64,000 bases of DNA from Thermoleptolyngbya sichuanensis A183 (GTDB lineage Bacteria; Cyanobacteriota; Cyanobacteriia; Elainellales; Elainellaceae), in NCBI RefSeq assembly GCF_013177315.1, contig NZ_CP053661.1, positions 5,394,001 through 5,458,000 on the forward strand, in the 5' to 3' direction. A program made the translations under genes and the position numbers. Positions 12,799-31,840 of this stretch are shown piece by piece; position 1 is the first letter of the stretch; every line of letters begins with the position of its first letter. The notes beneath the pieces are model-generated. The model was not told the DNA's origin and did no database searches. It worked only from the letters and a program-made list of their open reading frames with translations.

Positions 12799-13857
12799 AT
12801 GACCATAGCAATGGGAAGAGCGCAAGCCCAGCGAGGATGGTTTGACGTTCTCGACGACTGGCTAAAGCGCGACCGATTTGTCTTCGTAGGATGGTCAGGC
12901 ATTCTGCTATTCCCCTGCGCCTACCTGGCGCTGGGAGGCTGGCTGACCGGCACCACCTTCGTCACCTCCTGGTACACCCACGGCATCGCCAGTTCCTACC
13001 TAGAGGGCTGCAACTTTTTGACCGCCGCCGTATCCACCCCGCCCAACAGCCTGGGACACAGCCTGTTGTTTTTGTGGGGCCCCGAAGCCCAGTGGAACTT
13101 CACCCGCTGGTGTCAACTAGGCGGCTTGTGGACCTTTGTCGCTCTGCACGGCGCATTCGGACTGATCGGCTTCATGCTGCGACAGTTTGAGATTGCCCGT
13201 CTAGTGGGCATCCGTCCGTACAACGCCCTGGCATTCTCCGGTCCCATCGCCGTGTTTGTCAGCGTATTTCTGCTGTACCCGCTAGGACAATCGGGCTGGT
13301 TCTTTGCCCCCAGCTTTGGCGTTGCCGCCATCTTCCGATTCATCCTATTCGTGCAAGGCTTCCACAACTTCACCCTGAACCCGTTCCACATGATGGGCGT
13401 GGCCGGCATCCTGGGGGGTGCGCTGTTGTGCGCCATCCACGGAGCGACCGTGGAGAACACCCTGTACGAAGACGGCGACAAGGCGAACACCTTCCGCGCC
13501 TTCAACCCGACACAGGCAGAAGAGACCTACTCGATGGTGACCGCCAACCGCTTCTGGTCTCAGATTTTCGGGATTGCGTTTTCCAACAAGCGCTGGCTGC
13601 ACTTCTTCATGCTGTTTGTGCCGGTCACGGGTCTGTGGATGGCGAGCATTGGGATTGCGGGCTTGGCGCTGAACCTGCGGGCGTATGACTTTGTGTCGCA
13701 GGAGATTCGCGCGGCGGAAGACCCGGAGTTTGAGACGTTCTACACCAAGAACATTCTGCTGAACGAGGGCATCCGCGCCTGGATGGCTCCGCAAGACCAG
13801 CCTCACGAAAACTTTGTGTTCCCTGAAGAGGTACTGCCTCGCGGTAATGCGCTGTAG
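12799..13857 (+). CDS. psbD: Photosystem II reaction-centre protein D2, solitary copy
   Basis: This is a full-length 352-residue D2, one half of the photosystem II core in the thylakoid membrane. Numbering aligns without gaps with ordinary D2: Tyr160 (TyrD), His189, His197 (P_D2 ligand), His214 and His268 (iron ligands), Trp253 and Tyr244. Residue 191 is Phe where D2 sequences I know have Trp, and residues 99-100 are Trp-Asn instead of Gly-Asp. The start MTIAMGRAQ is preceded by GGAGA; a 27-residue in-frame extension upstream is not real. psbC, which overlaps the main psbD copy in cyanobacteria, is absent, and a strong terminator follows. This is therefore probably the second, monocistronic psbD. 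Confidence 0.93.
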
Positions 13858-13918: not shown

Positions 13919-13950
13919 ACGCCTTCACAGTTTTGTGGGGGCGTTTTTTT
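13919..13950 (+). terminator. Rho-independent terminator of psbD
   Basis: A 10-bp stem (acgccttcac with gtgggggcgt, two G-T pairs) closes a six-base loop and runs straight into seven Ts. It lies about 60 bases after the psbD stop. It supports a monocistronic psbD transcript. Confidence 0.8.
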
Positions 13951-13972: not shown

Positions 13973-14062
13973 AGGACTTACGCAGTTGGGCAATTTCTCG
14001 CGGGCTGCGCCCGCGAGAAATTGTCCAAAATCCAGGGAATTTATCGCAAATGCGTAAGTCCT
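13973..14062. repeat. Palindromic MITE-like repeat, copy 1
   Basis: This 90-bp element has perfect 12-bp terminal inverted repeats (aggacttacgca and its complement at 14051-14062). It encloses a 15-bp perfect hairpin (caatttctcgcgggc, 3-base loop, 13991-14023). Two further copies are at 31749 and 46850. It has no coding capacity and may be a non-autonomous element mobilised in trans. The resident IS4-type element has different ends and is not the obvious source. Confidence 0.75.
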
Positions 14063-14217
14063 GTACTTCTTTAGGAAAATCTTCTGAAGTCCCTGCTATC
14101 TCAGATGCTCAGCCGTTGGCTGTGCTATATTCTGAGGTAAGCCACAGGGAAAAGCCTGGCTTTTCAAATGCGGCGCTAATGCAGTCAATACTATTGAAAG
14201 AACAGGAGGTGTTGCCC

Positions 14218-14292
14218 ATGCAGGACAGCAGTAAACGTATGGGTCGTCAGGTTGAGATGTACTGGCTGTGCGCCGGGGCTGTTCTCTTGTAG
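14218..14292 (+). CDS. Possible 24-residue leader peptide or microprotein
   Basis: A short frame, starting MQDSSKRMGRQVEMYWL and ending CAGAVLL, follows an unusually good ribosome site (AGGAGGTG at 14204-14211, seven bases before the ATG). It ends one base before a heavily folded segment that finishes in a terminator, ahead of phhB. It could be a leader peptide, since it contains adjacent Tyr and Trp codons, or a microprotein with a short hydrophobic tail. I do not recognise a family. The strong ribosome site is the main support. Confidence 0.3.
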   Translation: MQDSSKRMGRQVEMYWLCAGAVLL

Positions 14293-14455
14293 CTTGACCC
14301 AGCTTCAATCAGAATCAAGTTTTCTGGGAGAGTCTGAGTTTGTTCAGAGTTCCTCCCGGCAGTCTAGGTCAATTTGAAGACCCGCTAGACCGCCCTTGCT
14401 ACTGGTGTTTTGGTTTCGACCGAAGGCACTGCCCAGCAGGGGCGGATAGTTTTTT
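14293..14455 (+). ncRNA. Candidate structured RNA or attenuator ahead of phhB
   Basis: Four inverted repeats follow one another. They are cttga/tcaag (14293-14319); a two-tier hairpin ctgggag/ctcccgg with inner tctga/tcaga (14324-14359); gtctag/ctagac (14362-14390); and a long two-tier hairpin at 14390-14445. The last has an 11-bp outer stem (ccgcccttgct/agcaggggcgg) and an inner stem of about 10 bp capped by ttcg. A six-T run at 14450-14455 follows. This is either a small RNA with its own terminator or a terminator-type leader controlling phhB, whose ATG is 62 bases on. I could not match it to a known family by eye. Confidence 0.5.
14390..14455 (+). terminator. Two-tier terminator hairpin upstream of phhB
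   Basis: The 11-bp outer stem contains one G-T pair and encloses a second stem with a single bulge. The T-run begins four bases after the stem. It is much stronger than an ordinary terminator and is positioned to interrupt readthrough into phhB. Confidence 0.65.
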
Positions 14456-14516
14456 AAGACACTTAGTTAAACATGTTGAGTCAACCCGACAAGCGCACCT
14501 CTGGAGGAAGTTCACC

Positions 14517-16864: not shown

Positions 16865-17302
16865 GTGGAACTTTCCTGTAAAACTGAGTATGCCCTGCTG
16901 GCACTGCTGGAATTGACGAATCACTACAGCAGTGGAGAGCCGCTGCAAATTCGCCAAATTGCCGCAGAGCAAAACATTCCAGACCGCTATCTAGAGCAAC
17001 TGCTGGCCACGCTGAGGCGTGGGGGGCTGGTGCGGAGCCAGCGGGGAGCGAAGGGCGGTTATGTGCTAGCACGAGAACCCTGGAAGATTAGCTTACTGGA
17101 AGTGGTGAACTGCATTGAGGGACAGGACGCACAGACCACCGATGCAAGACGTGATACAAAAACCGTCGAGGGAATGGTGATTTGGGAGGTGTGGCAGGAG
17201 GCGGGGCAGGCTGCCGATGCAGTGTTGCAAAAACAGACCTTGCAGGATCTGGCTGACAAGCGCGAGGCTCGCCGCCGTTTAGACATTATGTACTACATCT
17301 AA
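16865..17302 (+). CDS. Rrf2-family transcription regulator, CymR-like
   Basis: This 145-residue protein has the Rrf2 winged helix ([53 protein letters not shown]). The three clustered cysteines that hold an Fe-S centre in IscR and NsrR are absent; only Cys5 and one near residue 81 occur. It resembles CymR of Bacillus, the cysteine-metabolism repressor that binds CysK, and like CymR it ends in a hydrophobic tail with a terminal isoleucine (MYYI). cysK follows 43 bases later, which fits that role. The start is GTG with a weak ribosome site. Regulatory targets are inferred. Confidence 0.82.
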
Positions 17303-17345
17303 TCCATCTCATTTAATCCATCTAAAACTTGGACTGAATCTAACC

Positions 17346-18311
17346 ATGCGAATTGCTCAGAACGTTACTCAGTTGATTGGTGGTACGCCGCTAGTGCGGT
17401 TGAACCGGATTCCTCAGGCGGAAGGGTGTGTCGCGCAGATTGTGGTGAAGCTAGAGGGCATGAATCCGTCTGCTTCAGTCAAAGATCGCATCGGCATCAG
17501 CATGATCGAGGCGGCGGAACAGGCAGGCAAGATTGAGCCGGGCAAGACCGTTTTGGTGGAGCCGACCTCCGGGAATACGGGGATTGCGCTGGCAATGGCG
17601 GCGGCGGCAAAGGGCTATCGGCTGATCCTAACGATGCCGGACACTATGAGTTCTGAGCGGCGGGCGATGCTGCGGGCGTTTGGGGCGGAACTGGAGCTGA
17701 CGCCCGGAATCGAGGGTATGAGTGGCTGCATCCAGCGGGCGCAGCAGATCGTCGCCATGTTGCCGGATGCCTATATGCTGCAACAGTTTAGCAATCCGGC
17801 GAATCCCCAAATTCATCGAGACACGACGGCGCTAGAAATCTGGCAGGACACCGATGGTGCGGTGGATATTCTAGTCTCTGGTGTCGGGACGGGCGGTACG
17901 CTGACGGGTGTGGCCGAGGTGCTGAAAGAGAAGAAGCCAGGATTTCGGGCGATCGCCGTTGAACCCGCCAACAGTCCGGTGCTGTCGGGCGGTCGCCCCG
18001 GCCCCCACAAGATCCAGGGCATTGGCGCGGGCTTTGTGCCGCAGGTGTTGAATACAGGAATCATCGATGAAGTGGTGACCGTAACGGATGAAGAGGCGAT
18101 CGCCTATGGTCGTCGGCTGGCCCGCGAGGAAGGATTGCTCTCTGGGATTTCCAGCGGCGCAGCGCTGGCGGCCGCAATCAAAGTGGGTCAGCGTCCCGAA
18201 AACGCCAACAAGCTCATTGTGGTGATTCAGCCCAGCTTTGGTGAGCGCTATCTCAGCACCCCCCTCTTCCAAGATCCAGAACTGGTTGCGTCTGGTTCAC
18301 TGAGCGCCTGA
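17346..18311 (+). CDS. cysK: Cysteine synthase A (O-acetylserine sulfhydrylase)
   Basis: This 321-residue PLP enzyme converts O-acetylserine and sulfide to cysteine. The cofactor lysine lies in [14 protein letters not shown]. The substrate loop is [12 protein letters not shown], the phosphate-binding glycines are in [11 protein letters not shown], and the late [11 protein letters not shown] is conserved. Length and motifs match the CysK rather than the CysM branch. The Rrf2 regulator directly upstream probably shares its transcript and may sense CysK occupancy. Confidence 0.93.
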
Positions 18312-31748: not shown

Positions 31749-31840
31749 AGGACTTACGCACTTGCAATTAAACTTTTTGGGTTTTGGACGATTTCTCGCG
31801 GGCTGCACCCGCGAGAAATCGTCCAACTGCGTAAGTCTTA
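31749..31840. repeat. Palindromic MITE-like repeat, copy 2
   Basis: The element has ends aggacttacgca (31749-31760) and tgcgtaagtctt (31828-31839), with one mismatch between the arms. A 17-bp perfect hairpin lies inside (31786-31824, 5-base loop). A 7-bp direct repeat, tcgtaat, flanks it at 31742-31748 and 31841-31847 and is a possible target-site duplication. The left copy includes the stop codon of the EamA gene. Confidence 0.75.

Follow-up and report, generated by a model that had tools for sequence, protein, structure and literature searches.

A candidate small stand-alone RNA gene, with a short open frame and a conserved fold, in most cyanobacteria searched

A small gene unit between psbD and phhB

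The window analyzed here is a 64,000-nucleotide stretch of the genome of Thermoleptolyngbya sichuanensis A183. Between a psbD-like gene and phhB, it holds what looks, from comparison of sequences, like a small stand-alone RNA gene that folds on itself and is found in most of the cyanobacteria searched. The features of this element and its two syntenic neighbors are as follows.

12799 to 13857, + strand: psbD-like gene upstream of the element; syntenic neighbor, named by sequence recognition
14121 to 14131, + strand: extended -10 promoter element TGTGCTATATT, with a predicted transcription start near 14138
14204 to 14211, + strand: Shine-Dalgarno (SD) sequence AGGAGGTG, complementary to the 3' tail of 16S rRNA
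14210 to 14220, + strand: SD edge and start codon, which form the 5' strand of the predicted start hairpin, with the partner at 14238 to 14249
14218 to 14292, + strand: open frame MQDSSKRMGRQVEMYWLCAGAVLL, 24 codons, ATG at 14218 and TAG ending at 14292
14238 to 14249, + strand: switch strand within the frame (about codons 7 to 11), with predicted alternative pairing
14241 to 14287, + strand: second half of the frame, serving as the 5' strand of the long helix; alignment A1 has 34 pairs between it and the 3' strand
14346 to 14383, + strand: box B, the 3' strand of the long helix by alignment pairing, directly before the terminator
14384 to 14455, + strand: terminator, GCTA..CCGCCCTTGCT / AGCAGGGGCGG.TAG and then six T's, with a 2x1 internal loop
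14517 to 14795, + strand: phhB, pterin-4a-carbinolamine dehydratase (Pfam PF01329, Pterin_4a, E = 5.7e-35); syntenic neighbor

We presume the psbD, OprB, Rrf2, and cysK genes of the window to be such by recognizing their sequences; only phhB was named through a family search.

The promoter element at 14121 to 14131 is the sole exact match within the window. Among relatives, 95 of 127 sequences have TGTGYTA within the 140 nt that precede the frame, compared with a mean of 2.65 (highest, 8) in letter shuffles and 4 on the opposite strand. Sequence comparison found both the promoter element and the terminator to be conserved. The short transcript envisaged by the first-pass annotation of this DNA is plausible. 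Because the 16S tail of this genome is GGATCACCTCCTTT, the SD sequence of the window matches it over 8 bases, and the match spans 8 to 12 nt in 126 of 128 nonredundant sequences. For comparison, the 50 long stop-to-stop open reading frames (ORFs) of the window, not all of which are genes, reach 7 nt at most. The first-pass annotation had described a near-ideal SD sequence, a 24-codon frame ending at 14292, a terminator stem with six T's, and phhB shortly behind it, and all of these were recovered. The terminator stem pairs 14390 to 14400 with 14435 to 14445, the T's occupy 14450 to 14455, and phhB starts 61 bases past the last of them.

Other features were seen near the element. A further terminator-like hairpin with a T run lies behind psbD (13919 to 13950), overlapped by a subthreshold match to the suhB model (23.3 bits; cutoff, 41). 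Two short MITE-like elements (13973 to 14062 and 31749 to 31839) carry AGGACTTACGCA-like ends that face inward; with up to one mismatch, this end motif has 7 matches in the window where 0.19 were expected.

Conserved fold, distribution, and gene neighborhoods

Relatives of the element were collected in two ways. A DNA search with positions 14190 to 14516 matched 46 of 60 genomes, counting its own, and the matches fall mainly into two blocks, one comprising the SD sequence and frame and the other at about 14346 to 14400; it detected no second copy in its own genome, where the next match covered 21 bases (E = 0.097). A scan with an exact pattern of 29 bases, reaching from the SD sequence into the frame, matched at least 117 contigs, and 113 cyanobacterial contigs and 4 titled Chloroflexi or Anaerolineales/Anaerolinea were among the matches listed. 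The 46 loci from the genome search and the 113 cyanobacterial loci among the scan matches listed make up a set of 159. In most of the loci numbered L001 to L048 the frame was picked by a script that filtered on length and motif, and L016 and L040 were added by motif; in the 113 scan loci the frame is unconstrained past its first 16 bases. Four loci without the terminator string (L042, which ends in a different terminator, L109, L133, and L136) were left out. The remaining 155 were reduced to 147 by removing identical sequences and to 128 by removing near-copies, and 83 of the 128 form alignment A1.

Judged by this alignment, the conserved fold is one long helix (14241 to 14287 with 14346 to 14383) followed by the terminator. 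Over the 49 pairs of both structures, 95.3% of cells in A1 are standard pairs, compared with 88.7% in shuffled alignments and 33 to 52% when the strands are slid. Double changes occur in 32 of the 49 pairs (17.1 in shuffles) and fill 324 cells (71.9 in shuffles). In the terminator alone, 97.3% of cells are paired, with double changes in 8 of 15 pairs. Over the helix and terminator together, 47 of the 48 lettered pairs are standard in the window. The terminator starts at 14384, directly after the last base of the long helix (14383), and both are kept in the same sequences. Most sequences have CUA:UAG as the lower stem of the terminator, which the 2x1 internal loop sets off; L054 has CCA:UGG there, and four loci of family f2, judged by eye, have CGA:UCG.

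This covariation agrees with the structured RNA with its own terminator that the first-pass annotation had proposed, and the conservation of stems in relatives, which it had named beforehand as a test, was found. The details of its fold were revised. The four successive hairpins it described give way to the long helix and terminator, and its gtctag/ctagac stem is not the conserved pairing: GUCUAG has its partner within the frame, at the UGG codon, and the partner of CUA is the UAG that precedes the T run. Nor are the neighboring Tyr and Trp codons it pointed to conserved. Trp alternates with Arg at a codon whose first base pairs with the 3' strand, and these changes go in step with box B (columns 68:234 hold CG in 59 sequences, UA in 21, UG in 2, and another combination in 1).

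The minimum free energy (MFE) of the predicted transcript has a z score of -2.52, with 1 of 100 shuffles as good. The MFE structure of the window's predicted transcript is without the long helix, which counts against the role we favor below. Conservation and covariation are stronger evidence than the MFE.

A covariance model, R1, built from the 83 sequences of A1, matched 281 of 388 genomes of the class (its own included) and 137 of 157 genera; many R1 members come from genomes that were searched with it, and such genomes match by construction. There was one match per genome in 279 of the 281 matching genomes and two matches in the other two. Among the 20 genomes listed from the 107 without a match, 9 belong to family f2 and 6 to genus g37. 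When 15 genomes without a match were searched with laxer filters, one clear match appeared (G096, E = 2.9e-7), the next best having an E value of 0.018.

The model matches little past the 5' part in five loci (L216, L218, L219, L222, and L223), which again weighs against the favored role. Another four (L206, L207, L208, and L211) retain the frame together with part of box B and are without the usual GCGGATAG terminator, which an ordinary hairpin and T run replace in L206 and L208. An out-of-class match in one genome (G450, E = 2.5e-6) has a hydrophobic frame and was set aside, as it looks unrelated. Outside the class, positions 1400 to 1540 of locus L246 hold an SD sequence (AAAGGAGGTGATGCC), a hydrophobic 23-residue frame, and then a hairpin, and look like a type I toxin or holin-like gene.

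The Rfam comparison suggested in the first-pass annotation was run, and the window has no match in Rfam 15 at the gathering score. Four subthreshold matches in the 741 bases around the element all fall outside it, and among 11 loci, divergent ones included, no model matched the element, the one match being to a tRNA. We therefore rejected identity with a small RNA known to Rfam, as no Rfam model matches the element. A search of full-text literature, with most subscription journals outside its scope, yielded no description that we recognized as the element, and searches of the literature with its peptide and DNA letters returned no paper.

Neighbor counts were taken on loci including near-copies. 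Where the available sequence reaches far enough to tell, phhB is the next gene (79 of 136 loci), an OprB-like porin follows in 45 of 57 loci with enough sequence, and psbD lies upstream in 33 of 91 loci with enough sequence. The order psbD-element-phhB-OprB-Rrf2-cysK recurs among relatives, and the farthest phhB starts 1,389 nt from the ATG of the element. In the window, a gene recognized as an Rrf2-type regulator adjoins cysK (16865 to 18311), a pair that we take to be reminiscent of CymR-CysK. Homologues of the pair stand behind the porin in many relatives and directly behind the element in L092. In Nostoc 7120, the element presumably lies near alr4550.

In 28 loci, neither phhB nor the porin was found. 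The first ORF of at least 150 amino acids lies on the opposite strand in 16 of these (two of them, L040 and L141, on the same contig), and the terminator string is kept in 15 of the 16. Seven of 10 opposite-strand ORFs tested have a Pfam domain, YchF, Tab2, a P-type ATPase, an ABC transporter, and a transposon-type protein among them.

The short frame and a predicted switch at its start

The frame is kept in 159 of 159 loci, and its length changes are all multiples of 3. From the ATG to the conserved GGGT motif the distance is 23 in 153 loci, 26 in 5, and 32 in 1, and from GGGT to the stop it is 46, 49, 40, and 28 in 150, 6, 1, and 2 loci, respectively. The spacing between the stop and box B leaves all three remainders (56, 52, and 38 of the 146 measured); thus, distances outside the frame are not constrained. 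All 145 frames of 23 codons have Asp or Glu as residue 3, with all four letters occurring at the third base of its codon, and Ser-Ser and LCAGAVL are strongly conserved in the peptide.

Across 118 sequences, variability at the three codon positions is 0.63, 0.59, and 0.55 in codons 2 to 8, with no third-position excess, and 0.43, 0.52, and 0.65 in the helix, where the third position is mildly the highest. Substitution scores relative to expectation in the three frames are +0.54, +0.49, and -0.10 for the helix and -0.29, -0.71, and -0.65, all below expectation, for codons 2 to 8. By these scores, frame 0 is the best of the three yet is hardly singled out, and amino acid selection on the peptide looks weak on this sequence evidence. 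Because the frame is kept while the codon-position and substitution signals are weak, selection for being translated appears to exceed selection for the peptide. Two loci, L054 and L121, have only 17 codons but retain box B and the terminator; they lack the C-terminal half and are two of the three loci titled Thermosynechococcus, the third of which, L132, has it. In loci of other lineages (L209, L210, L215, and L217) the peptide is strongly divergent. The nearby cysK had raised the idea of cysteine-codon sensing, which we rejected, as the Cys codon changes to Arg, Ser, or Trp.

The first-pass annotation had also raised the possibility of alternative folds, and two competing partners are indeed predicted for one strand of the frame. 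The switch strand has two possible partners: the SD edge with the start codon, or 14375 to 14383, the latter for its part from 14241 onward. In the start hairpin, 89.4% of cells are paired, compared with 29 to 47% when slid; it is without covariation, as shuffles also reach 89.4% and the 5' strand is nearly fixed. Measured against letter shuffles in Cyanobacteria, its duplex energy has a mean z score of -1.5, and 43% of 128 sequences fall at or below the 5% level; two other segments gave z scores of +0.55 and +0.19.

Folding predictions with a 34-nt leader put the openness of the AUG at 0.17 for the frame only, 0.52 for the full RNA, and 0.17 with a shuffled 3' part. The native 3' part is predicted to open the AUG above the shuffled control in 115 of 128 sequences (114 of 128 without the leader), and in 123 of 128 the frame strand is predicted to go to the long helix. 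The window departs from this pattern: its frame strand is predicted to prefer the closed hairpin (0.77 versus 0.22). With the leader, its AUG openness is 0.08 for the full RNA, 0.25 for the frame alone, and 0.007 with shuffled 3' parts; without the leader, the prediction rises from 0.66 for the frame alone to 0.86 for the full RNA. A switch is thus predicted in most sequences, but not clearly in the window. Sequestration of the SD sequence by CCUCC of box B was considered and rejected, since the match has only five bases and, by eye, is broken in several loci.

Five Chloroflexi-type loci have a stretch from the SD sequence to codon 5 that is like the cyanobacterial one: L058, L062, L095, and L149, so assigned by title, and L251, whose genome belongs to the class of L149. 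Their helix and box B letters are unrelated to the cyanobacterial ones. None of 200 shuffles matched the duplex energy of the start hairpin in any of the five. Folding pairs the frame with a strand after the stop in four; the predicted fold of L058 retains the SD hairpin, and a similar frame pairing is possible there by eye. The full RNA is predicted to open the SD sequence clearly in L062, partly in L058, and not in the other three, a further point against the favored role. The likeness is no proof of common origin, because the pattern forces the first stretch and matches only 2 of the 199 genomes of L149's class, one of them L149's own.

Possible roles of the element

The gene unit, its frame, the long helix, and the terminator are established by comparing relatives. 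As to its role, the reading we favor, at about an even chance of being right, is a structured mini-mRNA, stand-alone and usually present in one copy, that controls access to its own ribosome site, with folding and translation in competition. During synthesis, a local hairpin formed by about codons 7 to 11 would shut off the SD edge and start codon. The finished box B would then take the frame strand into the long helix and the start would open, so that ribosomes would load on the completed RNA. A translating ribosome would unwind the long helix and free box B, and ribosome occupancy and RNA fold would therefore report on each other. The act of translation, rather than the exact peptide, would be what is selected. 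A partner RNA, a protein, an RNase, or a ligand might read this state. In favor of this reading are the wide and mostly single-copy distribution, the covariation of the long helix and terminator, the kept frame with its free spacing to box B, the promoter element, the pairing of the start hairpin relative to slid strands, the predicted opening of the AUG by the native 3' part, the opposite-strand neighbors, the lack of a third-position excess in codons 2 to 8, and the 17-codon frames of L054 and L121 that retain box B and the terminator. Much more tentatively, we postulate an ancient, single-copy "ribosome gauge," tuned from the SD sequence to about codon 5 for tight 30S binding. Its helix would start at an almost constant distance (in 153 of 159 loci, GGGT lies at offset 23 from the ATG), and its fold would report ribosome initiation or occupancy. 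Such a gauge would be present in Cyanobacteria and also in some Chloroflexi, where the helix letters are unrelated.

We think it rather unlikely that the product is a microprotein of roughly 23 residues, its mRNA being structured for stability or expression control. The universally kept frame, the acidic residue 3 despite a free third base, the conserved Ser-Ser and LCAGAVL, the variable third position in the helix, and the positive frame 0 score there would all suit such a product. However, frame 1 of the helix scores nearly as high, codons 2 to 8 fall below expectation in every frame (least so in frame 0) without a third-position excess, the Trp/Arg changes track base pairing, and the peptide loses its C-terminal half in L054 and L121 and diverges strongly elsewhere. 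An unlikely role is that of a trans-acting small RNA in which translation of the frame, as a control device, exposes box B to target mRNAs. Box B changes in step with the frame instead of staying constant, and it is unrelated in sequence in the Chloroflexi-type loci, even though the element looks stand-alone, with a promoter and terminator, and many loci have CCTCC or CCTTCC in box B, which would complement letters of the SD type.

A leader-peptide attenuator acting in cis on phhB or the OprB porin operon, the former suggested by the first-pass annotation, would explain why these genes so often follow and why the gene order recurs. Attenuation was rejected as a general role because opposite-strand ORFs, mostly with recognizable domains where tested, often follow the element; the distance to phhB can also be long, and the long helix and terminator are adjacent and compatible, with no antiterminator seen in a nonexhaustive look. 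We regard it as quite improbable. Least probable of all, and very much so, is a type I toxin mRNA of the hok/AapA sort. The tiny frame, extreme SD sequence, predicted nascent start hairpin, and frame-to-3' pairing resemble aapA3 as described in PMC6733600, but none of 128 peptides has a 15-residue window with a mean hydropathy of at least 1.6, nearly all matching genomes have a single match, the gene order recurs, and box B pairs with the frame instead of the SD sequence.

Several known systems share parts of the favored design. In aapA3 mRNA of Helicobacter, nascent hairpins that close the SD sequence are replaced by a long-distance interaction on completion (PMC6733600). The element resembles aapA3/IsoA3 in its small frame, its start-closing nascent hairpin, and its later long-distance pairing, the last two as predicted. 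According to PMC6733600, the full-length RNA of that system is inert, and the system includes an antisense RNA and a toxic peptide, whereas the full-length fold of the element is predicted to open the start in most sequences and its peptide is not hydrophobic. The dual-function RNAs SgrS/SgrT and SR1/SR1P (PMC5126843) likewise combine a stand-alone small RNA with a short frame, but in the element the frame itself is the structured part. Leader-peptide attenuators also have a short frame, alternative pairing, and a terminator; they differ in that the element often has no codirectional gene behind it and its terminator is compatible with the helix.

Among cyanobacterial RNAs, Yfr1, Yfr2-5, and Yfr6 are likewise free-standing small RNAs (PMC1242208). 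That source reports that the yfr6 locus may also encode a 33-residue peptide and that Northern blots of four strains detected Yfr6 in two. Identity with Yfr6 was rejected, as yfr6 lies in other gene neighborhoods there and the element has no matching Rfam model. In Escherichia coli assays, Yfr1 repressed alr4550, a gene for an OprB-like porin (PMC6974561).

The gene unit thus occurs in 137 of 157 sampled genera without an Rfam entry, and ordinary protein annotation would miss so short a frame. With its two competing folds, it offers a direct and testable example of mutual control between folding and translation, and, if expressed, the element would be open to probing in ordinary laboratory cyanobacteria.
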